From Planktothricoides sp. SR001 (lineage in GTDB: Bacteria > Cyanobacteriota > Cyanobacteriia > Cyanobacteriales > Laspinemataceae): 64,000 bases of DNA. The position numbers and the translations under genes are program-made. The notes under the pieces were generated by a model. The model was not told the origin of the DNA and did no database searches. It was given only the letters and a program-made list of their open reading frames with translations. Below are positions 4,011-37,244 of this stretch, piece after piece; position 1 is the first letter of the stretch; every line of letters starts with the position of its first letter. Location of the stretch: the NCBI RefSeq assembly GCF_001276715.1, contig NZ_LIUQ01000004.1, forward strand, positions 1-64,000, given 5' to 3'.

Positions 4011-4041
4011 CAAAGAATCCCTACCCAAAGAATCCCTACCC
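4011..4041. repeat. Two tandem copies of a dispersed 15-bp repeat
   Basis: Two adjacent copies of CAAAGAATCCCTACC lie at 4011-4025 and 4026-4040. The same unit recurs at 36744-36788 (three copies), 37181-37210 (two copies) and, in reverse orientation, at the truncated end of a DUF262 gene near 45591-45605. Surroundings are AT-rich runs of the CAATAACCAATAACC type. Confidence 0.85.
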
Positions 4042-4067
4042 AATAACTAATAACCAATAACCAACAA

Positions 4068-7400: not shown

Positions 7401-8155
7401 ATGCCTATTTCATCTTCGCTGTTAATATCTAAATCCGTGTCCCATTCCCCTTGGCCAATTTTCAGAGCTACATTTTTCAGTTTTAAAATCGGGTTAGCCA
7501 CTTGTTTCGCAAATAACCAAGCCATGATGATGGCTACGCTGGAACCAACGGTTAAGGAAATGATATTCAGAAATAATGAACGACGAGCAATTTTCTCACT
7601 CATCTCTTGATTTTTTTCCAGTTGCCAGAGTTGCGATGATATCGCTCGATCCAGGAGGTGGCTTAGGGATTGACTATGTTCAATTAATTGCTTTTGTTGA
7701 GCGATCGCAGCGGTTGGCTGATTGGCATTCCGGCTCAAATCAGTTAAATACTGCTTGACGGATTCATTAAACCTAATCGCAGCTTGTTCAATGGCTTCAA
7801 ATTCTTCTAGCTTAATTGAATTACTGGAATCCATTGTATTTACTGCTAATCCTTTAGCTTTGACAATACTGTGCAATAATGCCTGATTCCAATGTTCAAT
7901 ATTATCTGACATATTATATGACATCTTTGATGGCTTTGAGTCGGTGGCGATCGTCATGGGTGTCAGGGACTCAAGCATCGTCAAGTTTTGGTAATTTTTG
8001 GCTTGACTAAATTTTAAATAAATTTCCCGATTTTTTTTAATGGTTTGATGTAACTGATTGTGGTAAAGATGCAGATAAAGATTAATGGTTTCTAAGCCAA
8101 TCACACCTGTAGCGACGGTCAAAATTAAAATCAAGAATTTAGCTTTTAGTCTCAT
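4469..8155 (-). CDS. HAMP/multi-PAS/GAF sensor histidine kinase
   Basis: Large membrane sensor kinase of 1228 residues. Visible in order: membrane segment (about 8-28), periplasmic sensor region (about 30-190), second membrane segment (about 195-216), HAMP linker (about 217-270), three PAS domains (about 275-390, 395-520, 530-650; for example DLDGYIIDCNPAAERIFGY), coiled coil (about 650-700), GAF (about 715-870), second coiled coil, then HisKA with phospho-acceptor His919 in [16 protein letters not shown]. The HATPase domain has [17 protein letters not shown] and [11 protein letters not shown] low-complexity Ser/Asn/Gln-rich insert (about 1085-1140) interrupts the ATPase domain between its N-box and G1 box. 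No response regulator is adjacent. The kinase core is of the same subfamily as the CHASE2 kinase, suggesting that the two arose by domain shuffling. Confidence 0.92.
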   Translation of the reverse strand: MRLKAKFLILILTVATGVIGLETINLYLHLYHNQLHQTIKKNREIYLKFSQAKNYQNLTMLESLTPMTIATDSKPSKMSYNMSDNIEHWNQALLHSIVKAKGLAVNTMDSSNSIKLEEFEAIEQAAIRFNESVKQYLTDLSRNANQPTAAIAQQKQLIEHSQSLSHLLDRAISSQLWQLEKNQEMSEKIARRSLFLNIISLTVGSSVAIIMAWLFAKQVANPILKLKNVALKIGQGEWDTDLDINSEDEIGILAKAFNQIVEKFKQTNESKQYVDKIIRNINESLIVLNANYEIKDFNFSTVLLLGYEEAELLGTSIETLFLSPKVCQEILGIDENIANSFLGTKETVLVTKDMRQIPVSFSASIMWDEHDRVEGIVCLVQDISAHKQAIESLRRQALMFETIHDGILLTDLDGYIIDCNPAAERIFGYPKTKMVGHMTGMLRYPPPPLGHDGDRAQYLTQQIIHGVLSRGRWTGEFRFMRGDGSWGICETIVVPLRDHSNKLIATIGVNRDISERKQAEDALRKSEERLESILNSLNDIVWSMEINRQEILYVNPAIAKVYGRSVNDFLTQPSLWFDVIHPEDRPRVIDFSAEIFASGERDIEYRIIRPDGEVRWIRDRGKLIEDPDKKSLRFEGIATDITEQKHAQQLLEEAHAQLEQRVEERTAELTANNDMLIAEIRERVAAEKALRQSENKFKQLARQETLVNQLTEQIRNSLDLSTILKTTVQQIRTLLSLDRCVFIWYRQKNAAQNCEWIWQVVAEAKHRCLPSILGDYAANPDEFLSQKIQNLEIIREDNLAIATDINLKKIYQDWHYQSILALPIKTHSGQIGVISCGNFRRIKPWTDADVALLQAITNQLAIALFQAELYSQAQTAAQVAQEKAEELEETLEKLQKTQAQLIQSEKMSSLGQLVAGIAHEINNPVNFIFGNITFIQDYTNNLLKLLEIYQEKLSEPDAKILAFLEECDVEFIRDDLPKLLSSMQVGANRIREIVLSLRNFSRLDEANYKLVNLHEGLDNTLLILQHRLYGEDFPPSYHHNGKKIQVIKNYENLPKIECFASLLNQVFMNILSNAIDALESSPMMSKHSLMNHGQNSDQNGAIAKIHSADLKSELKTNINRDYASNSGHMTQPKTEVNSGQIPTIYISTKVQEGDRVVIRIRDNGPGMTESIRQRIFDPFFTTKPVGSGTGLGLSISYQIIVQRHHGNLSCVSQPGEGTELIIELPIHQ

Positions 8156-8921
8156 TGCTTTTTCATCAGGGATATTGGTGAATACGGATAGATGATCTGT
8201 CGCTGAATTTTCATCCCTTTAACATAGGATCGCGGTCAGTGACAGGCTTTAATTTTCCAGTTAATGACCCCACGATTTCATCACTTTAATCCGACATTTA
8301 ACCCGATAATTGAGAAAGTTTTTATCGATCAAGATTAGCCCGATCGCCCAGCAAATCATCGGGATAAGGACATGGCAGAATTCGTGAGTCGAGTTTACCG
8401 CTCGGTGCGAAAAATTTGAACGGTACGATATGAAGCCTTTGTTGTAACTTTGATGATGTTTTCCAGTGGTAGTCAAACCCCTGAGAAATCAACATAACCA
8501 TGAATAGCATTTTATATACTTATGCGATATAATCGACCGTTAACAAAAAACTGGATATTGTTGTTAAGACCTTTGCTGCTTCCGCCTCAGCAGACTTGGG
8601 CAAGGGATCCGATCGCTCCCATTAGCACGGCGATCGCTCGGATCAATCCACAGAAATCATTACCGAGCAAGAAGTATTTTGCTGACGACTTATTGATGCA
8701 GCCAAGACAGGCTGCGATCCGGCTTCTTTTTATTGTAGCTCTATAGTTGCCTGGACTTTGACTGAGTAGTCAGTTTTGTAAATATTGCCTCTTGTTTGTT
8801 GCCGGATGTTATCTGATGGCCGAAAGGACTTACGCATTTTTTCGGAGTCAAGCGGTTTTGCTAGGGGCAATTGATGCATTTGATGAATTGCCCCACCAAC
8901 CGATCGCTATTTGCCCCAGAC
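8156..8921. other. Intergenic region without a supported gene
   Basis: 766 bp between the start of the large kinase (-) and the end of lnt (-). Short open frames exist on both strands, but none shows a recognisable motif or a convincing ribosome binding site. Several HIP1-like GCGATCGC and CGATCG sites are present. It may hold decayed coding sequence that I cannot identify. Confidence 0.5.
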
Positions 8922-10754
8922 TTATTTTAAACTCAGCTTTCCGGCGATCGCGGCTAAAATTAATAATGCCGGAGTGAGGCGATCGCCCCAAAGGACATAG
9001 AGAGTTTTTGTGGTACGACGATAAATTGTACCGGCATACAAATCATACTGATTAATTTGTGAATGCCAGTGAGTTTTTCCATGAGGATCGACAATGGCTG
9101 AAAGTCCGGTATTCGTCGCTCGCACTGCCCAGCGATCGGTTTCAATAGCTCGCATTAATTCTAAAGCATGGTGTTGCCACATAATATCCGTATGATAATG
9201 GGCATCATTGGATGCGGTTAAAATAAACTCACCCCCAGCGGCAGCTTGACGGCGAAAATGTTCGGCAAAGGGTGCATCAAAGCAAATGCCCACAACGGCT
9301 CGAGCAAAGGGAGTTTCAAAGATTTGGTCTGGGGAACCCGCGACTAAATGAGCATCTAAGGGAGAGAGGCGATCGATGAACCCGCCGATATATTTTTCAA
9401 AGGGAATATATTCTCCTAATGGGACTAAATGGGTTTTATCGTAGCGGCTAAATGTTTGGCCATTTCCTATCACGGTAAATAAACTATTGGTATAGTCACT
9501 GACTAGCTTTTGACCATTGTTCACGAGGCCAAAAGTTCCCACCCAAGCGACTACCCCTTTTTCCAGAATTGCTTGATAAAAAGAACTCTGCATCTGATTT
9601 TGGGTGGTCCATAAATAGGGCAATGCAGTTTCGGGAATTAACACCGCATCCACGCCGCGATCGGCCAATTCTCGATACCCGCGAGTATAACCCGCTAAAG
9701 CCTGTCGCCACCCTTCGGAATTAAACTTAATATCATTAGAGATATTCCCTTGGATGATGCCAACTTTTAAAGCGGTTTCTGCCGGTTGAATTAAGGGTCG
9801 GTTCCATAAATAAAACCCTAGGCTATGGGCAGCGATGAATAAACCAACTGCGATCGCGATCGGTGCAAGGAAAGAGGATAGAGGATATAGGATAGAGGAT
9901 ATAGGATAGAGGAAAATTCTCTCTTCTCTATCCTCTTTTCTCTCTTCTCTATCCTCTTTTCTCTCTTCTCTTTTCTCTCCGCTTTTTTGGTGCAATATCC
10001 AAGATTCCGCGATTAATCCATTGACTGCTACAATCAGCGCTGTGATGGTATTTGGGCCAGAAAGTTGGCCTAGATGTAAAATAATTGGGTTATGAGGACT
10101 TTGGGTATAAGATAACGATGACCACCAAAGCGGGCCATTACTCCACAAATATTCTAGGCCACACCAAACAGCGGTGCCAATTAATCCGCGAGTTAAGAAA
10201 ATTAACTGCGGAAATTGGGGATGTTTTTCCTGAGATAGATTTTCTGGATTTTTTCCCTGAGATATTCCCTGAGATATTCCCTGAGATATCTGTTGCCAAA
10301 TCCAGCCACAGACTACTGCCCAAATGCTGACTAATGCCGCCCCCCAAAGGGTGACAAATAGCCAACAAAATATCGCGATCGCCAAACTCGCTAACCAGGG
10401 CACTCCCAGCCAAGTCATTGGGTGAATTCCCGTTAACCAAAATAAGGCTACACCGTGATAACCAATGCCCCAACATAAGCCAAAAATATATTGAGGAAAG
10501 AGGATAGAGAAGAGAGAAGGGAGAAAAGAGAAAAGAGCGGGGAGAAAAGAGTTTATAGAATTTTCCTCTATCCTCTTTCCTCTATCCTCTTTCCTATGAA
10601 CTCCTCTCTTTTCTGCCTTGTTGGTTTCGGGGTCGGCGATCGCCACCCACAAAGGCACTAAGGCAACATAAGCCAAAGGCCAGATATTCAAAGGGGCGGG
10701 GGATAATCCCATCAGAATTCCCCCTAGTAAAACAATTCCTAAACGCAATATCAT
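8922..10754 (-). CDS. lnt: Apolipoprotein N-acyltransferase, with in-frame repeat insertions
   Basis: Integral membrane enzyme that N-acylates the lipid-modified N-terminal Cys of lipoproteins. Multiple membrane segments (from about 3 to 310) precede a nitrilase-like domain (about 328-565). The catalytic triad is visible: Glu375 in LIPETALPY, Lys440 in RYDKTHLVPLGEY and Cys491 in VVGICFDAPFAE. At 610 residues it is some 90 longer than usual. The excess is repeat-derived: residues about 47-88 (KAEKRGVHRKEDRGK, then FLPALFSFLPSLFSI), about 156-168 (ISQGISQGISQGK) and about 259-296 (KREERKEDREERKEDREER, then IFLYPISSILYPLSSF). Two of these come from purine/pyrimidine foldback DNA; see separate entries. 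The frame and catalytic residues are intact, so the protein may tolerate the insertions in its membrane loops. It lies downstream of gyrA on the same strand. Confidence 0.92.
   Translation of the reverse strand: MILRLGIVLLGGILMGLSPAPLNIWPLAYVALVPLWVAIADPETNKAEKRGVHRKEDRGKRIEENSINSFLPALFSFLPSLFSILFPQYIFGLCWGIGYHGVALFWLTGIHPMTWLGVPWLASLAIAIFCWLFVTLWGAALVSIWAVVCGWIWQQISQGISQGISQGKNPENLSQEKHPQFPQLIFLTRGLIGTAVWCGLEYLWSNGPLWWSSLSYTQSPHNPIILHLGQLSGPNTITALIVAVNGLIAESWILHQKSGEKREERKEDREERKEDREERIFLYPISSILYPLSSFLAPIAIAVGLFIAAHSLGFYLWNRPLIQPAETALKVGIIQGNISNDIKFNSEGWRQALAGYTRGYRELADRGVDAVLIPETALPYLWTTQNQMQSSFYQAILEKGVVAWVGTFGLVNNGQKLVSDYTNSLFTVIGNGQTFSRYDKTHLVPLGEYIPFEKYIGGFIDRLSPLDAHLVAGSPDQIFETPFARAVVGICFDAPFAEHFRRQAAAGGEFILTASNDAHYHTDIMWQHHALELMRAIETDRWAVRATNTGLSAIVDPHGKTHWHSQINQYDLYAGTIYRRTTKTLYVLWGDRLTPALLILAAIAGKLSLK
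9867..9979. repeat. Purine/pyrimidine foldback element inside lnt
   Basis: On the + strand a purine-rich arm (9867-9914, AGGATAGAGGATATAGGATA type) is followed by a pyrimidine-rich arm (9919-9979). AAAGAGGATAGAG at 9871-9883 pairs with CTCTATCCTCTTT at 9926-9938. Read on the - strand it adds about 38 residues to Lnt: a Lys/Arg/Glu-rich run, then a Phe/Leu/Ser/Pro-rich run. Confidence 0.8.
10249..10284. repeat. 12-bp tandem repeat inside lnt
   Basis: Three near-identical copies of a 12-bp unit (TCCCTGAGATAT register) encode ISQG three times in Lnt. The unit length is a multiple of three, so the frame is kept whatever the copy number. Confidence 0.75.
10492..10615. repeat. Second purine/pyrimidine foldback element inside lnt
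   Basis: Same architecture as 9867-9979. GAGGAAAGAGGATAGAG at 10493-10509 is perfectly inverted as CTCTATCCTCTTTCCTC at 10566-10582. The core AAAGAGGATAGAG is shared by both elements. It encodes about 42 extra residues near the Lnt N-terminus, again a charged stretch followed by a hydrophobic one. Confidence 0.8.
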
Positions 10755-11100
10755 CCGTCGTTATTTTTAGGGTTATTTTTGGTTACAGCGGTTTTCAGAT
10801 TGGTCAACCAAAAATATCTGTAGGGGCGAACCATGACCGCAGATATTTCTGGGTTAAAAATAGAGATTTAATGCCGGAAAGATCACGCCCTTACTCCAAA
10901 TATCTGTGGTCTATTCAACAGAACACCGCTGTAGGATATATCCCCGGATTTTTTATCACACCGAAGCAATATCTTTTGGAGATAAATTAAGTGCAAAAAT
11001 AAGTGCCAAAAGCAGCCGGGGATTTTGGGAGAAAACTGAGAAAAAACCAACTTAGACAAAGGCGATCGCCTAAGTTGATTTTTCTCATAGTTATTCTTGT
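10755..11100. other. Intergenic region with dispersed repeat fragment
   Basis: 346 bp between lnt and gyrA. About 10823-10890 holds a member of a dispersed motif set (TAGGGGCGAACCATGACCG, then CCGGAAAGATCACGCCC) also seen near 20995, 36610 and 55555. No gene is supported here. Confidence 0.5.
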
Positions 11101-13680
11101 TTATTCTTGTTCTTCTGCTGATTCCTGATCTTCTCCTGAAGGGGGCACCAATGCCACTGCCACGATCGCATCGTCTGGATCGAGACGCTGCACCCGGACA
11201 CCTCCGGCAGCACGAGACTGACAAGAAATTGCTTTTGCCACCTGCCGAATAATAATGCCGCGACTGGTGACAATAATAAACTCATCATCTTCATTCACCA
11301 CCCGCAGGGCTGCCAACCGATCGTCAGGATTGCGGAATTTAATCGCCTTAATGCCTTTCCCTGCCCGCTTTTGCAGTCGGAATTTGTTCACTGGCACTCG
11401 TTTACCCAAACCCCCGGTAGTCAGGATCAAAACCATTTGTCCTACTTGATCGGCAATTTCGGTTTCTTCCTCTTGATTTTCTAAATCAACATCGTCTTGG
11501 TCAGCTTCTTCCTCCTCTTGATCGCTCATAAGCGCCGTCAATTGACTAGGAATAATATCCATACTGATAATGCGATCGTTTTTCGCCAATTTCATCGACT
11601 TCACCCCTCGTGTATTCCGACCCAAAGGACGCAGTTGACTATCATCGGTTTTAAAATGAATCGCGATGCCATTACTGCTACCAATAATGATGCTATCTTC
11701 GGCGGTGGCGCGACGCACCCAGCGCAATTGGTCGCCTTCTTCCAGAGAAATGGCGATTAAACCATTAGCCCGAATATTATTAAATACTGAAAGAGCGGTT
11801 TTCTTAATATAGCCGTCTTGAGTCAGCATCACCAAATATTCATCATCACTGAATTCACTCACCGGCACGATCGAGGTAATTTTCTCATCGTGAGGTATGG
11901 GCAACAATTGCACGATCGCACTGCCTTGGGCAGTCCGAGAACTCATAGGAATTTGGTAAGCATTCAGGCAATATACTACCCCGCGTTCACTAAAAAATAG
12001 GACTTTATCGTGGTCGCAGCAGGTTAAAAAATGCTCGACCATATCATTGTCTTTCATCTTCGTGCCCGCTTTACCGCGAGTTGCCCGATTTTGTGCCTCA
12101 AAGGTATTCACTGGCATTCGCTTGATATACCCTTGTTTGGTCAACAAAATAATCGCTTTTTCATTAGCAATTAGGTCAGTTTCATCGATTTCCCCTTCTG
12201 AATGTTCAATCTGGGTGCGGCGGGGTGTGGCAAACTTATTCTTAATATCATTGAGTTCGGTTTCGATAATTTCGAGAATCCGTTCGCGACGGGCAAGAAT
12301 ATCTTTTAAATCCGCAATCTGTGCTTGTAAATATTCGTGCTCTTGTTGAATTTTCTCCGCTTCCAGGGCTGTCAGTCGCCGCAGTTGCATTTGTAAAATT
12401 GCATCGGATTGGGCTTCGGATAGACCAAAAGAATCGATTAATTCTTGACGAGCAGTGGCCGAGTCTGCACTGGAACGAATAATCCGAATAATTTCATCTA
12501 AAGAAGCCAGGGCGATTAATAACCCTTGCAACAGATGATCCCGTTCTTCCGCTTTCCGCAGTTCATAGCGGGTGCGTCGGGTAATCACATCGATGCGAAA
12601 ATCAAGGAAAATTTCCAGAAATTCTTTGATTTGGAGTAACTTTGGTTCACCGTTGACCAAGGCCAACATATTGGCGCCAAAGTTACTTTGTACGGGGGTT
12701 TGTTTGTAGAGGTTGTTGAGCACGACCCGGGGATACGCATCCCGTTTCAGTTCGATGACGATCCGCATTCCGTCGCGATCGCTTTCATCCCGGATATCGG
12801 AAATGCCATCAATCCGCTTATCATTCACCAATTCAGCAATTTTCTCAATCAATGCTGCTTTATTGGTTTGGTATGGCAACTCGGTGATAATAATCGCTTC
12901 TTTATCCGGTCGTCCTCGGTGTTGGATGGTTTCAATATTGGCCACACCGCGCATGGTAATTGACCCGCGCCCAGTATTATAGGCATCTTTGATGCCCGAA
13001 ACTCCCAGAATTTGCGCCCCAGTGGGAAAGTCGGGGCCGGGAATATATTGTCGGAGTTCTTTGTTGGTGATTTCTGGATTGTGAATCAGGGCGATCGTCC
13101 CATCAATCAGTTCTCCCAAGTTATGGGGCGGAATATTGGTGGCCATACCCACCGCAATACCGGAGGAACCATTGAGCAAGAGTTGGGGAATCCGGGCTGG
13201 CAATACTAAGGGTTCTTGCTGGGAACCGTCGAAGTTATCCGCAAAATCGACGGTTTCCGAGTCAATATCCCGCAACATGGATTCGGTGGTCAGGGCTTGC
13301 AGGCGACATTCCGTGTAACGCATCGCTGCTGGTGGGTCGTTGTCAATGGATCCAAAGTTACCGTGGCCATTGATTAGGGGCGATCGCATGGAGAAATCCT
13401 GCGCCATCCGCACCAGAGCATCATAGACTGCCGTATCACCGTGGGGATGGTATTTACCCAACACTTCCCCGACCACACGGGCGCATTTTCGGAAGGGGCG
13501 ATCGGGTGCTAATCCGAGTTCATGCATGGCGTAGAGAATTCGCCGATGCACTGGCTTCAGACCATCCCTAGCATCTGGTAAAGCCCGACCGACAATTACG
13601 CTCATGGCGTATTCCAGATAAGACTGGGACATTTCGTTCCGCAGATCCGTCGGGATAATCCGCTCCTGGGAGGTTGTCAT
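11101..13680 (-). CDS. gyrA: DNA gyrase subunit A
   Basis: Type II topoisomerase subunit that cleaves and rejoins DNA during negative supercoiling, paired with GyrB. I chose the ATG at 13678-13680 ([17 protein letters not shown]) over an upstream in-frame start at 13722 because it puts the catalytic Tyr at 122 ([11 protein letters not shown]) and Thr83/Asp87 in [13 protein letters not shown], exactly E. coli GyrA numbering. Length is then 859. The winged-helix and tower regions are followed by a six-bladed C-terminal domain with a GyrA-box-like QKRAGKG (E. coli QRRGGKG) and an acidic tail. An acidic insert ([20 protein letters not shown]) lies between blades. The GyrA-box and overall fit favour gyrA over parC. 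Position 83 is Thr, where Ser is common in other bacteria. It is transcribed away from the deacetylase gene. Confidence 0.93.
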
Positions 13681-14133
13681 ACAGTAAAATACTCCAAAAA
13701 CTTCAGTTTGTTGTAGCCACAACTCAAAAAAACTTTGAATCCGCTACTTAGCCGTGAAATTATGCCAATTTTGTGACTGTATTTTATCATATTTTCATCA
13801 ATGTTTCGGAAAATTAACTTTTCCCCGTAATTTCTGACTCATTTTACTCCCATCTTTTTAATGATTCCCCATTAAATATTTGATAAGTTTAACGGTTATT
13901 TTGTGATTTAAATAACCCCAGGACTAATTTTTATTTGAATGATTCAGCAGACCCAGAGGTACAGGGTAAAAATTGCCGGTGTCGGAAATCCCCAAAATCT
14001 TTGGTCGGTGAGCATTATATTTGTGATGATTGCTTAACTTAAGAGTTGAGGAAGATCAAGCCAATTTACTTGCAAATTTAGGCAAAATTTGCTAAAATCG
14101 AAGGTTATATTAAATTAACGATTATTCATTCCT
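13681..14133. other. Divergent promoter region of gyrA and the deacetylase gene
   Basis: 453 bp of AT-rich DNA between divergently transcribed genes; promoters for both should lie here, but I see no clear consensus. It also contains a short Cys-patterned frame at 13935-14042. Confidence 0.5.
13935..14042 (+). CDS. Possible 35-residue zinc-ribbon-like peptide
   Basis: A TTG-started frame ending at TAA 14040-14042. It contains NCRCRKSP and, 13 residues on, YICDDCLT, so a CxC and a CxxC pair that could bind zinc. I recognise no family, there is no ATG, and no good ribosome binding site is seen. It may be the tail of a decayed gene. Confidence 0.25.
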   Translation: MNDSADPEVQGKNCRCRKSPKSLVGEHYICDDCLT

Positions 14134-15048
14134 ATGTTTACTATAATTTATGCTGATGATTTTCTAGACCATCAAACAGGTGGATTGCACCCAGAACGCC
14201 CAGACCGCTTGAGGGTGATCGTCAATGCATTGAAAGCCGCACCCTGGGCAAGTTCTTTGCAATGGCAACTGCCCACCTCAATTTATACGCGGGATGTGAT
14301 GCCAGCGATCGCCCGCGTTCATACAGTTCGCCACATTCACGAAGTGGAAGCCTTGGCCATGAAAGGGGGTGGCCGCCTGGATATGGATACGCCAGTTTCA
14401 GCGGACAGTTATGATGTGGCTTTGTTAGCGGTGAGTGGCTGGCTGGATGGGGTTGAGGCGGTGATAGAAAACGAAGAACCGGCATTTATTCTCGCCCGAC
14501 CCCCCGGACACCATGCGGAAAAAGATCAGGGGATGGGATTTTGCCTGTTTTCTAATGCTGCGATCGCCGCTGACTATGCCCTGCAAAAACCAGAAATTGA
14601 GCGAGTGGCGATTCTGGATTGGGATGTGCATCACGGCAACGGCACCCAGCATCTAGTAGAAAACAATCCTCAAATTGCCTATTGTTCCCTCCACCAATTT
14701 CCCTGCTATCCCGGTACAGGTCGCAGTAGCGATCGCGGCGCCCACAACAACGTTCTCAACATCCCCATGTCTCCGGGCAGTACCATTGCCGAATATCAAC
14801 CAGCATTTGAGAAACAAGTAATGCCGTTTTTGCGTAACTTTCAACCAGATTTATTAATTGTCAGTGCGGGCTATGATGCCAATGCCGCTGACCCCTTAGC
14901 CGGAATTAATTTACAACCCGAAGATTTCGGCACCTTTACAGACTATTGTTTGCAAATTACGCGGCGGATTTTATTCGGACTGGAAGGGGGTTATGACTTA
15001 GATGCCCTGAGTCAATCTGTCCTGGCAACTATTGAGCGCTGTTTGTAA
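14134..15048 (+). CDS. Histone-deacetylase-family hydrolase
   Basis: Zinc-dependent amidohydrolase of the HDAC/acetoin-utilisation/acetylpolyamine-amidohydrolase superfamily, 304 residues. Motifs in order: HPERPDRLRVI near the start, RPPGHHAEKDQGMGFCLF with the active-site His pair, ILDWDVHHGNGTQ with metal-binding Asp and His, SLHQFPCYPGTG, SAGYDANAADPLAG with the third metal Asp, and LEGGYDLDAL near the end. The domain is complete. Bacterial members deacetylate polyamines, acetyl-lysine or other small amides; the substrate cannot be read from sequence. It stands alone, divergent from gyrA and convergent with the DUF262 gene, with a 300-bp foldback repeat immediately after its stop. Confidence 0.9.
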   Translation: MFTIIYADDFLDHQTGGLHPERPDRLRVIVNALKAAPWASSLQWQLPTSIYTRDVMPAIARVHTVRHIHEVEALAMKGGGRLDMDTPVSADSYDVALLAVSGWLDGVEAVIENEEPAFILARPPGHHAEKDQGMGFCLFSNAAIAADYALQKPEIERVAILDWDVHHGNGTQHLVENNPQIAYCSLHQFPCYPGTGRSSDRGAHNNVLNIPMSPGSTIAEYQPAFEKQVMPFLRNFQPDLLIVSAGYDANAADPLAGINLQPEDFGTFTDYCLQITRRILFGLEGGYDLDALSQSVLATIERCL

Positions 15049-15352
15049 TTGGTTGTTGGTTGGGGTGTGGGGTGTGGGGTGTGGGGGAAACAAAGGGTGT
15101 GGGGTGTGGGGGGGAAGAGAGAAAAGAGAAGAGAGAAAAGAGAAGAGAGAAAAGAAAAGAGAGAAAAGAAAAGAGAGAATCTTCCTCTTTCGTCTTTCGT
15201 CTTTCGTCTTTCGTCTTTCGTCTTTCGTCTTTCGTCTTTCGTCTTTCGTCTTTCGTCTTTCGTCTTTCGTCTTTCGTCTTTCGTCTTTCCTCTTTCGTCT
15301 CTTCCCCTACACCCTACACCCCACACCCTACACCCTACAACAACCAACAACA
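15049..15352. repeat. Large foldback repeat with a 7-bp tandem core
   Basis: Region between two convergent genes, built as nested inverted low-complexity DNA. A left arm of GGGGTGT-type repeats (15052-15112) begins with GGTTGTTGGTTG. A purine tract follows (15113-15179, GAAGAGAGAAAA type). Then come 14 perfect tandem copies of TCTTTCG (15186-15283), one variant, and one more copy. The right arm (about 15303-15352) of ACCCTACACC repeats ends ACAACAACCAACAAC. The outer arms are approximate reverse complements and the inner purine and pyrimidine tracts also oppose each other. The 7-bp unit keeps all frames of both strands open, giving long artificial frames that are not genes. Confidence 0.9.
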
Positions 15353-15360
15353 ATTCAGAA

Positions 15361-16512
15361 TTATTGTCCTACCTGAAAATAGGGAACATCTAGACCAATT
15401 TGTAACAACTTATTGCGCCACTTATCTAAGCGCATTTGAATCCGGTCTTTGTTTTTGGTGGATGAAGTAATCGATTCATTGAATTCCGCATCCTCACAAA
15501 CTTCTCGCAGGGCTTCCGCGATCGCCGCTTTTTTCGGTCGGATCGCCTCAGACTTCAAAGAAGCAAAGGACAACATAATCACATCATAAATAGCTCGGTT
15601 GATGGCATTTTCCCAGCCATTCTCAAAAGTATAGCGACGAAACGCCCGATTATCAAATACTTCATAGACATCGCCAATCACCCGCATGAATAAGTCTCGA
15701 TGCTGTTGGATAGTGGCGTCATCAAAATGAGAGCCTTTTTCCAGATAATGATCCAAAAATCTAGACAGGTTGCCCCGGTAATCTTTCAAGGCATAATGAA
15801 AGGCAAAAAACCTGAGAATTAATTCACAATCTCGCATGCGTTTATCAATTTCCTTGATATTGCGAGTTTTCTGGAAAAGCTCATCTTCCGAAAGTTCTAA
15901 AATTAAATCATTAAGTTTTCCGCGATAAACACTATTGCGAAGTTCTTGGGCATTCAGGGCAACAAATCCGCTATTTAATCTTTCAAATACATCAAATTTA
16001 ATATCCGGGTGAGATTCTTTGACAATCACAATACAACGAATCGTCCGAGAATAAATATACCGTTGATAAGCAACATCTAAATTTTTAAAGCTTTTCCGAT
16101 TTAATTCTCGGAGAACTTTTAAGCCTCTAAGCGCATATTTATTGGTTAAAAATTGATAGATGGCCGTGAGTCTTTGTTGACCATCAATCACGCTATAAGA
16201 ACCATCCTCTAATTCGGCAAAATAGCAAACCGGAATCGGTACATTCAACAATAAGGATTCAATTAATCGACTGCACTTACTCAAGTCCCAGACTTGACGC
16301 CGCTGGAATTTGTCCGCCAAAATCAGGCTACCATCATCAACTTGTGCTTTCAGGGAACGAATAATAAAGTCATAAGGGTGGGTGAGGAGATGCCGCTGCT
16401 GAACCGGAATGTCCAGTTCGGGAAATTCCTCCTCTTCTTCCATTTCAAAGTTTTCTTCTTCTTCTTTGGTGACGATTTCTTTTTCCATCGCCCGAGCCGA
16501 ATTATCTAACAT
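15361..16512 (-). CDS. DUF262 domain protein (GmrSD N-terminal-like)
   Basis: Protein of 383 residues with a DUF262 (ParB/Srx-like fold) domain. Key motifs are FQRRQVWD (about 84-91), LLNVPIPVCYFAE and the hallmark VIDGQQRLTAIYQF, followed by VFERLNSG and ALNAQELRNSVYRG. DUF262 forms the N-terminal half of GmrSD type IV restriction enzymes, where DGQQR is linked to nucleotide-dependent function. Here the DUF1524 HNH nuclease half is absent, so this is a stand-alone version of normal length whose role is unknown and could be defence-related. An acidic N-terminal tract (KEEEENFEMEEEEEF) precedes the domain. It is convergent with the deacetylase gene. Upstream, 896 bp carry no gene. Confidence 0.85.
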   Translation of the reverse strand: MLDNSARAMEKEIVTKEEEENFEMEEEEEFPELDIPVQQRHLLTHPYDFIIRSLKAQVDDGSLILADKFQRRQVWDLSKCSRLIESLLLNVPIPVCYFAELEDGSYSVIDGQQRLTAIYQFLTNKYALRGLKVLRELNRKSFKNLDVAYQRYIYSRTIRCIVIVKESHPDIKFDVFERLNSGFVALNAQELRNSVYRGKLNDLILELSEDELFQKTRNIKEIDKRMRDCELILRFFAFHYALKDYRGNLSRFLDHYLEKGSHFDDATIQQHRDLFMRVIGDVYEVFDNRAFRRYTFENGWENAINRAIYDVIMLSFASLKSEAIRPKKAAIAEALREVCEDAEFNESITSSTKNKDRIQMRLDKWRNKLLQIGLDVPYFQVGQ

Positions 16513-24769: not shown

Positions 24770-26866
24770 TTAGTCAAAAACCGCTTTTATGGCTTTGGCG
24801 TAATCGGCTATGGCTAAATCATATTTTTTTAAGTTTTTGTAGGCATCACCCCGGTTATTGTAAACATCAAAATTGGTCGGATCGAGTTCTATGGCCTTAG
24901 TGTAATCGACTATGGCTAAATCATATTTTTTTAAGTTTTTGTATGCATCACCCCGATTATAATAAGCCCAAGAATAGTTAGGATCAAGTTCTATGGCCTT
25001 GGTGTAATCGGGTATGGCTAAATCATATTTTTGTAACTCTTTGTAGGCATTACCCCGACTATTGTAAGCCCAAGAATAGTTAGGATCAAGTTCTATGGCC
25101 TTGGTGTAATCGGCTATGGCTAAATCATATTTTTGTAAGTTATCGTAGGCCAAACCCCGATTATTGTAAGCCCAAGAATAGTTAGGATCAAGTTCTATTG
25201 CCTTGGTGTAATCGGCTATGGCTAAATCATATTTTTGTAAGTTATCGTAGGCCAAACCTCGATTATTGTAAAGGAAAGAATAGTTAGGCTCCAGGTTGAT
25301 AGTCTGGCTGTAATCAGCTATGGCTAAATCATATTTTTGTAAGTCTTTGTAGGCATTACCTCGATTATTGTAAGCCCAAGCAAAGTTCCGATCCAGTTCT
25401 ACGGCTTTGTTGTAATCAGCTATAGCTAAATCATATTTTTGTAAGTTTTTGTAGGCATTACCCCGATTATTGTAAGCCCAAGCAAAGTTCGGATCCAGTT
25501 CTATGGCTTTGGTGTAATCAGCTATGGCTAAATCATATTTTTTTAAGTCTTGGTAGGCATTACCCCGATTATTGTAAGCATTAACATAGTTCCGATCCAG
25601 TTCTATGGCTTTAGTGTAATCAGCTATGGCTAAATCATATTTTTGTAAATTATAGTAGGCATTACCCCGATTATTGTAAGCCCAAGCAAATTTAGGATCC
25701 AGTTCTACGGCTTTGGTGTAATCAGCTATGGCTAAATCATATTTTTGTGAGCAAAAATAGGCATTACCACGAAGATTGTAAGCCTCAGCATATTTGGAAT
25801 TGAGTTCGATCGCTTTCGTGTAATTAGCGATCGCTGATTTATATTGTTTCAAGCCATAGTAGGAGTCACCCCCTTTAATGTAATCGGCTATAGCTAAATC
25901 ATATTTTTTTAATTCTTTGTATGCCTTAGCCCGACTCTCGTAAGCATGAAAATAATTTTGCTCTAGTTTTATGACTTTGGTGTAATCAGCGATCGCTAAA
26001 TCATATTTTTTTGATTCCAAGTAAAGTAGACCACGACTATTATAAGCCGCCGCATCTTGTGGATTTAGTTCGATTGCGTTGGTGTAATCAGCCATAGCTA
26101 AATCATATTTTTTTGATGCTGAGTAAACCCAACCACGACCATTATAAGCCGCCGCATCTTGTGGGTTTATTTTGATCGCTTTGGTGTAATCAGCCAGCGC
26201 TAAATCATATTTTTTTGATTCTGAGTAAACCCAACCACGACTATTATAAGCTGCCGCATCTTGTAAATTTAGTTCGATCACTTTTGTGTAATCAGCGATC
26301 GCTAAATCTAAACTATCTTTAGCTTTGTACAACCCATTCAACAACTGGTATGCCGAACCACGATTTTTATAAGCTGCCGGATCTTGTGGATTTAGTTCGA
26401 TCGCTTTTGTGTAATCAGCGATCGCTTTTTCTAAATTATCTTTATTAATATTATACCGCGTATAGGCATTACCTCTAAGATTGTAATTCGCTGGATCTTG
26501 TGGATTTAGTTCGATCGCTTTTGTATAATCAGCGATCGCTTTTTCTGTGTTATCTAGAAAATAATGAGCCGTTCCCCGAAGGAGAAAAGCTTTGCCCATA
26601 TTGGCATCGAGTTTTATAGCTTCGTCCAATGATCCCAAAGCGGCGGCATAATCTTTTTCATGGAAAAAAGCGATTCCTTGACTGTAATAATCATTAGCAG
26701 TTTTCTTTTCTTGTTGTTTCAGATTCGCGTAAGTTTCTGGATTGATAAATATCTGAATGGGAATCCCTAAATTCCAGCTATTTTCTATGCCCTTTTCATC
26801 GCGATCGCCTTTTGCGTGAACCCCGACAATTTCCCCTCGGTGATTCAACACCGGCCCGCCATTCAT
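24770..26866 (-). CDS. TPR-repeat protein (C-terminal part of a broken protease-TPR gene)
   Basis: About 698 residues with some seventeen tetratricopeptide repeats of 34 residues (core KYDLAIADYTKAIELDPNY, then AYNNRGNAY), a protein-interaction superhelix. The first 50 residues are the end of a trypsin-like protease domain: GMNGGPVLNHRGEIVGVHA. This lies in the same frame as the upstream 26894-27418 piece; only one TGA (26894-26896) separates them. The active-site Ser of GMSGGPV is Asn here. No convincing ribosome binding site precedes the first internal Met, so translation of this half is uncertain. DNA of the repeats is very similar (TAATCAGCTATGGCTAAATC recurs), indicating recent internal duplication. 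Confidence 0.85.
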   Translation of the reverse strand: MNGGPVLNHRGEIVGVHAKGDRDEKGIENSWNLGIPIQIFINPETYANLKQQEKKTANDYYSQGIAFFHEKDYAAALGSLDEAIKLDANMGKAFLLRGTAHYFLDNTEKAIADYTKAIELNPQDPANYNLRGNAYTRYNINKDNLEKAIADYTKAIELNPQDPAAYKNRGSAYQLLNGLYKAKDSLDLAIADYTKVIELNLQDAAAYNSRGWVYSESKKYDLALADYTKAIKINPQDAAAYNGRGWVYSASKKYDLAMADYTNAIELNPQDAAAYNSRGLLYLESKKYDLAIADYTKVIKLEQNYFHAYESRAKAYKELKKYDLAIADYIKGGDSYYGLKQYKSAIANYTKAIELNSKYAEAYNLRGNAYFCSQKYDLAIADYTKAVELDPKFAWAYNNRGNAYYNLQKYDLAIADYTKAIELDRNYVNAYNNRGNAYQDLKKYDLAIADYTKAIELDPNFAWAYNNRGNAYKNLQKYDLAIADYNKAVELDRNFAWAYNNRGNAYKDLQKYDLAIADYSQTINLEPNYSFLYNNRGLAYDNLQKYDLAIADYTKAIELDPNYSWAYNNRGLAYDNLQKYDLAIADYTKAIELDPNYSWAYNSRGNAYKELQKYDLAIPDYTKAIELDPNYSWAYYNRGDAYKNLKKYDLAIVDYTKAIELDPTNFDVYNNRGDAYKNLKKYDLAIADYAKAIKAVFD

Positions 26867-36703: not shown

Positions 36704-36743
36704 TCTAATTTATATAGAGGATAAAAGACAATCAACAATCAAC

Positions 36744-36788
36744 CAAAGAATCCCTACCCAAAGAATCCCTACCCAAAGAATCCCTACC
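36744..36788. repeat. Three tandem copies of the 15-bp dispersed repeat
   Basis: CAAAGAATCCCTACC at 36744-36758, 36759-36773 and 36774-36788, all perfect, followed by ACAATCAACAATCAAC low-complexity DNA. Confidence 0.9.
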
Positions 36789-36830
36789 CAACAACAATCA
36801 ACAATCAACAATCAACAATCAACAATTTTA

Positions 36831-37082: not shown

Positions 37083-37180
37083 AATTTTTTCTCCTTAATT
37101 TGTTATGGTTTGGGAAAATAATTAATTAACAAACCCGGTTTATTTATTTAAGAAACCGGGTTTCTTTATTTGTTCTCAAC

Positions 37181-37210
37181 CAAAGAATCCCTACCCAAAG
37201 AATCCCTACC
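37181..37210. repeat. Two tandem copies of the 15-bp dispersed repeat
   Basis: CAAAGAATCCCTACC at 37181-37195 and 37196-37210, between gvpG and the DJ-1/PfpI gene. The palindrome AGAAACCGGGTTTCT lies just before, at 37151-37165. Confidence 0.88.
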
Positions 37211-37244
37211 CAACAACAAATTATGAATTGTGAATTATGAATTA

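Follow-up and report, generated by a model that had tools for sequence, protein, structure and literature searches.

The lnt gene of Planktothricoides sp. SR001, which encodes apolipoprotein N-acyltransferase, contains two segments that are most reasonably explained as copies of a genus-specific family of purine-to-pyrimidine (R-to-Y) foldback repeats. We propose, with a probability of roughly three in four, that these copies have been altered by slippage and are carried as near-neutral, frame-filtered cargo in loops that tolerate insertions and deletions. The family is dispersed in the genome, its copies are present or absent in frame between related genomes, its coding capacity is symmetric with respect to strand, the host ORF is intact, and different arrays occupy the same loops elsewhere.

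Two heptamer foldbacks within an intact lnt gene

The features listed below lie within the 64,000-nucleotide stretch of DNA that was analysed (the window), and the congener used for comparison is designated G001.

8922..10754, minus strand: lnt, characterized by its ORF, Pfam domains, alignment with E. coli Lnt, and dN/dS against the congener
9862..9868, minus strand: TTGCACC, downstream copy of the 7-bp direct repeat flanking lnt element 2
9867..9988, no strand assigned: lnt element 2, R-to-Y heptamer foldback with a GAAAATTC core, encoding about aa 255-296; absent from G001
9989..9995, minus strand: TTGCACC, upstream copy of the same direct repeat
10253..10289, no strand assigned: 12-bp tandem array (TTCCCTGAGATA x3) in a third lnt loop, encoding QISQGISQGISQG; shorter in G001
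10492..10619, no strand assigned: lnt element 1, R-to-Y heptamer foldback with a GAATTTTC core on the plus strand, encoding aa 47-87; common to G001
15061..15339, no strand assigned: third foldback, intergenic, with nested heptamer arrays TGGGGTG / GAAGAGA / core / TTCGTCT / CCCTACA

The lnt ORF is open and intact over 610 aa, and its product carries the LNT_N and CN_hydrolase Pfam domains together with the Glu-Lys-Cys triad by which an Lnt is recognized. As stated in a first-pass annotation of this DNA, the catalytic residues Glu375/Lys440/Cys491 are retained, and all three are located within conserved motifs. Outside the repeats, comparison with the congener yields dN 0.028 and dS 0.141 (dN/dS about 0.2). 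Judged from its sequence, the enzyme is probably still active despite the elements. An AlphaFold model of Lnt based on an alignment of 5 rows had a mean pLDDT of 38 and was set aside as useless.

It is extremely improbable that the two segments are an assembly artefact or signs of a decayed gene. Tandem repeats can be mis-sized in a draft of 165 contigs, but element 1 is also in frame in the separately assembled congener, the ORF is unbroken, and the same pattern is seen in several genes.

Both R-to-Y foldbacks that had been noted earlier were recovered, with their perfect 17-bp and 13-bp cores, by a search for inverted cores. The longest perfect inverted core of element 1 spans 17 bp (10493-10509/10566-10582, GAGGAAAGAGGATAGAG), and that of element 2 spans 13 bp (9871-9883/9926-9938 and 9947-9959, AAAGAGGATAGAG). 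Absent from the first-pass annotation were the heptamer tandem make-up of the arms and the third, intergenic foldback. Tandem Repeats Finder resolves the arms of both lnt elements into arrays of 7-bp units with higher periods of 14 and 21 bp, and the same 7/14/21 periods were found at 15114-15300. In parts of the lnt arrays, the frame-keeping 21-bp period scores highest.

The translations of element 1 (aa 47-87, AEKRGVHRKEDRGKRIEENSINSFLPALFSFLPSLFSILFP) and element 2 (aa 255-296, HQKSGEKREERKEDREERKEDREERIFLYPISSILYPLSSFL) run, as previously described, from a Lys/Arg/Glu-rich stretch into a Phe/Leu/Ser/Pro-rich stretch; EERIFLYPISSILYPLSSFLAPIAIAVGLF is an example of a peptide within the inserted portion of Lnt. 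Element 1 is located between segments that align with E. coli Lnt residues 12-44 and 58-117, and element 2 between segments that align with residues 116-186 and 192 onward. At these two sites, about 14 and 6 residues, respectively, separate the aligned segments of the E. coli protein. From the known topology of Lnt, we take both loops to be cytoplasmic and remote from the active site.

RNA folding analysis revealed that element 2 folds better than shuffled sequences (z -4.8 and -3.5), whereas element 1 and the element at 15108 do not clearly do so, and dinucleotide shuffles frequently fold nearly as well as the elements. Given the results for element 1 and the 15108 element, we make no claim of a selected RNA hairpin. 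No Rfam match was found in positions 8000-16000 of the window.

A dispersed family whose base order keeps reading frames open

The repeat census covered 824 kb of contiguous sequence, complemented by pattern searches across the 7.07-Mb draft genome. Genome searches for the element sequence and for the purine-pyrimidine layout revealed a dispersed family. When one mismatch or fewer is allowed, AGAGGATAGAGGA has 11 matches in the window compared to 0.06 expected from dinucleotide shuffles. Genome-wide, AGAGGATAGAGGA has 34 matches, versus 1 for the reversed control. Likewise, the pattern R20-N(0-20)-Y20 gives 84 overlapping matches at at least six places in the genome, versus 0 for the reversed Y-R control. 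The scan of 824 kb yielded six R-to-Y elements and no Y-to-R element, and 4 of 7 R-to-Y elements are inside ORFs when lnt element 2, which falls below the scan threshold, is added. A common core of the family is GAGGAAAATTCTCTC; unit number, arms, and core vary from copy to copy, and the ends are not constant. The strict core R8-GAAAATTC-Y8 is essentially confined to this genus (4/59 genomes) in a search that undercounts, because copies with T in the purine arm are missed.

Tandem arrays with periods of 7 (66 arrays), 14 (50), and 21 (23) total 139 in the 824 kb, compared to 11, 28, 3, and 5 arrays with the neighbouring periods of 8, 13, 20, and 22, respectively. This excess indicates that the genomic background is the heptanucleotide-rich state known in cyanobacteria (PMC4692102). 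The window carries other repeats as well. Tandem copies of the 15-mer CCAAAGAATCCCTAC occur at three separate places (4011-4043, 36743-36791, and 37180-37213), and a tandem repeat with a unit of 102 bp, a length typical of a TPR-coding array, is present in about 13 copies at 24788-26308.

In-frame copies beyond lnt were found in cobB (CbiA/GATase_3), in a gene for a TPR/glycosyltransferase-41 (GT41) protein, in a gene for an ArnT-like membrane glycosyltransferase (PMT; two copies), and in a gene for a Swt1-HEPN/DUF499 protein. With genes called crudely as longest ORFs, every in-gene copy found is in frame and reads Lys/Arg/Glu followed by Phe/Leu/Ser (for example, GKKEERGKRKEERGNIFSLLSSLFSLLFSLPSVGR). 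This uniform reading results from codon composition and from an R-to-Y order that is unchanged by reverse complementation. Because codons made only of purines or only of pyrimidines include no stop codon, and because the order is strand-symmetric, a pure copy is open in six frames. Indeed, the pure copies in cobB and at 15108 are open in all six. The claim that such an element always reads through nevertheless proved too broad, since copies with GATAG units have TAG in some frames; in lnt element 1, one of the three frames on either strand is open. Repeats that are nearly free of stops can thus enter working genes repeatedly, lnt included, without breaking them.

Two further observations concern coding regions. 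In the gene for the TPR glycosyltransferase, both congeners carry in-frame arrays between the same pair of TPR units (L095 3943-4093, and L153 of G001), and these arrays are of different kinds: GGGGAGCA-type and RY in one congener, and GGGGAGCA, CAATTAT, and CCCTACA types in the other. At L102 3777-4073, an AcrB-type efflux gene continues at its C-terminal end into an RY array, which the congener lacks at the orthologous site.

It is highly unlikely that the charged-plus-hydrophobic peptide has been selected as a functional module for membrane or cytoplasmic loops. The order is always charged then hydrophobic, the copies in Lnt lie between membrane segments, and the ArnT-like enzyme is a membrane protein too. 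However, base composition alone explains the peptide pattern, copies also occur in soluble CobB and between TPR units, and the peptide is poorly conserved between congeners, with outgroups either lacking it or carrying unrelated arrays. For lnt element 1, dN (0.17) exceeds dS (0.07) in the comparison with the congener, over 44 codons, which are too few for a test; these values show no sign of purifying selection and are in line with an absence of constraint on the amino acids that the element encodes. Because soluble proteins also carry copies, the module does not appear to be an adaptation to membrane-protein loops, as had been supposed. Rather than a selected module, the elements in lnt, cobB, and the ArnT-like gene would be tolerated cargo, probably near neutral in these loops.

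Presence and absence of copies, probable slippage, and a proposed frame filter

Presence and absence were assessed with two congeners (this genome and G001) and, for cobB and the ArnT-like gene, with outgroups; the other members of the taxonomic family that were compared belong to other genera. For 22 catalogued sites, the flanking sequences were looked for in G001, where most of the sites could be located. Of the two lnt segments, which the first-pass annotation proposed to check as strain-specific insertions, element 2 is absent from G001 and element 1 is shared by the congener at the same length with changed, diverged units. The cobB copy and both ArnT-like copies are likewise absent from G001, where, as at element 2, the flanks are closely similar; at the cobB site, G001 has TVPGN in place of the element. 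In the outgroups, the cobB and ArnT-like orthologues are likewise without this array at the corresponding sites. All alignable relatives run straight through the insertion point of ArnT-like copy 2, which is most simply read as a gain in this lineage. With two congeners compared, lnt element 2 was probably gained here, although it may instead have been lost in G001. At several intergenic sites, array lengths differ between the congeners, and the intergenic array at L100 sits inside a MITE that is absent from G001 at that site.

One possibility is that the copies are non-autonomous mobile elements of a MITE-, RPE-, or REPIN-like kind, moved by a transposase acting in trans, with the heptamer periodicity being secondary. 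Such an origin seems unlikely overall, even though it would account for the four in-frame copies missing from the congener, for the recurrence of the GAAAATTC core and of the R-to-Y order, and for the RY arrays that are found within a MITE with inverted ends. It would also fit the 7-bp direct repeats found on either side of lnt element 2 (TTGCACC) and of the cobB copy (CAGGATT). However, the ends are not constant, and arm sequence and length vary by site. The insertion junctions are not clean and so speak neither for nor against a transposition step. The TTGCACC copies are 127 bp apart, which is not a multiple of three, so that lnt before insertion would have been out of frame and a simple in-frame target-site duplication is unsupported for element 2. 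No target-site duplication was seen at the junctions of ArnT-like copy 1. Target-site duplication as a general rule, considered on the basis of TTGCACC and CAGGATT, was rejected on the grounds of this frame arithmetic and the ArnT-like junctions. Separately, we observed a MITE-like element with ends ATACCATTTACAAAAATT... and inner sequences GGTGGGCAAAAA...TTTTTGCCCACC that carries RY arrays at some sites and none at others (L100 3769-4005; L163; L093; L107).

Phase variation is a decidedly unlikely explanation, in which gain or loss of one 7-bp unit would shift the frame of lnt, cobB, and other genes. The arithmetic permits this (7 = 1 modulo 3), and the differing lengths of intergenic arrays in the congener are compatible with it, but all in-gene copies found are in frame, lnt element 1 has the same length in both congeners, and frame-keeping 21-bp periods are top-scoring in parts of the lnt arrays.

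We therefore return to the reading of slippage-altered, frame-filtered cargo. In this family, a short GAAAATTC-type core would separate 7-bp purine units from 7-bp pyrimidine units. New copies might arise by a copying or template-switch event, and the instability to which triplex-prone R/Y tracts are linked elsewhere (PMC4666352) could feed such template switching. Slippage, the probable source of length change, and mutation would then alter the copies. Within genes, copies would persist only where they occupy an indel-tolerant loop and add a net length divisible by three. Such a frame filter would predict that arrays with period 21 are found in ORFs more often than those with period 7 or 14, and this is the case (9/23 against 16/116; Fisher p = 0.007, with crude ORF calls).

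Other lineages and known repeat systems

The loops that hold these elements have also received other repeats. In the TM2-TM3 loop of Lnt, G000 and G001 have RY arrays, G004 has a GGGTGTA...TACACCC foldback, and G013 has (TTCCTTC)n; period-7 arrays are present in 6 of 30 Lnt genes. The CobB loop of G002 carries an unrelated G-rich to C-rich foldback. Across 59 cyanobacterial genomes, R-to-Y patterns outnumber Y-to-R patterns by 246 to 19 overlapping matches, and with longer tracts the counts are 71 and 0 across 146 cyanobacterial genomes. We tentatively suggest, as a conjecture somewhat short of even odds, that strand-symmetric R-to-Y foldback arrays form a class of frame-transparent DNA that arose in several cyanobacterial lineages from different units and repeatedly supplies the same loops of conserved proteins with new charged-plus-hydrophobic peptides. 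The large excess over Y-to-R extends to R-to-Y foldbacks built of other units, with six-base units in G014 and others in G043, G147, and G169.

To our knowledge, in-frame coding palindromes have so far been treated largely as a peculiarity of Rickettsia. The present example from a large-genome cyanobacterium offers a case in which base composition alone explains how repeats survive in genes. Two close genomes supply before-and-after pairs, and the conversion of repeat DNA into new protein sequence thereby becomes directly testable. In addition, annotators should consider repeat DNA as a possible source of K/R/E-then-F/L/S inserts in cyanobacterial proteins.

The first-pass annotation knew of no named repeat class of this kind, yet two described systems come close: heptanucleotide repeats (PMC4692102) and Rickettsia palindromic elements (PMC10969869). 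Heptanucleotide tandem repeats have been described in Calothrix (STRR) and Nostoc (GGGGA(C/T)T), and inverted heptamer pairs in Xanthomonas (PMC4692102). The lnt elements resemble STRR-type repeats because both are arrays of 7-bp units. Tandem 7-bp units are present in both lnt elements and at 15114-15300, and the arrays are dispersed with an excess of period 7. Like the repeats in that source, they form many dispersed arrays that are over-represented between genes. In contrast to them, the units are GAGGAWA and GAGARAA, purine and pyrimidine arrays are paired around a core, and several genes carry copies in frame.

Cyanobacterial MITEs and REPINs (PMC3542288, PMC3116915) are likewise small, dispersed foldback DNAs. 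MITEs, however, have terminal inverted repeats, and the 15 in-ORF MITEs of Anabaena sp. 90 lead to predicted pseudogenes; the elements described herein lack constant ends, and their flanking repeats are inconsistent. Intrastrand triplex motifs of bacteria, which are abundant in cyanobacteria and linked to local instability (Holder et al. 2015, PMC4666352), also place purine and pyrimidine tracts side by side on one strand. Those motifs need a third matching tract, and the E. coli motif that was studied is always intergenic.

Rickettsia palindromic elements (RPE; Ogata et al. 2000, 2002) are in-frame palindromes in genes, according to PMC10969869 and PMC3733652. As with RPE, the foldbacks are short, lie in frame within ordinary genes, and are tolerated by the host protein, and in-frame insertions in conserved genes are absent from orthologues (lnt element 2, cobB, and both ArnT-like copies). 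The RPE families in those papers are about 150 bp, each with a conserved peptide. The elements examined here have neither constant ends nor a constant peptide, their peptides being alike in composition only, and they are instead purine-to-pyrimidine arrays of 7-bp tandem units whose order itself keeps frames open. Heptamer in-frame foldbacks, with R-to-Y order explaining frame tolerance, were not found in the literature searched, which did not extend to the originals of Mazel 1990, Ogata 2000/2002, and Elhai 2008. In-frame foldbacks were already known from Rickettsia and heptamers from cyanobacteria, and what may be new is their combination and the R-to-Y order that explains frame tolerance. 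By analogy, these elements can be regarded as RPE-like in concept and STRR-like in sequence, and conceptually as a cyanobacterial counterpart of the coding palindromes of Rickettsia.
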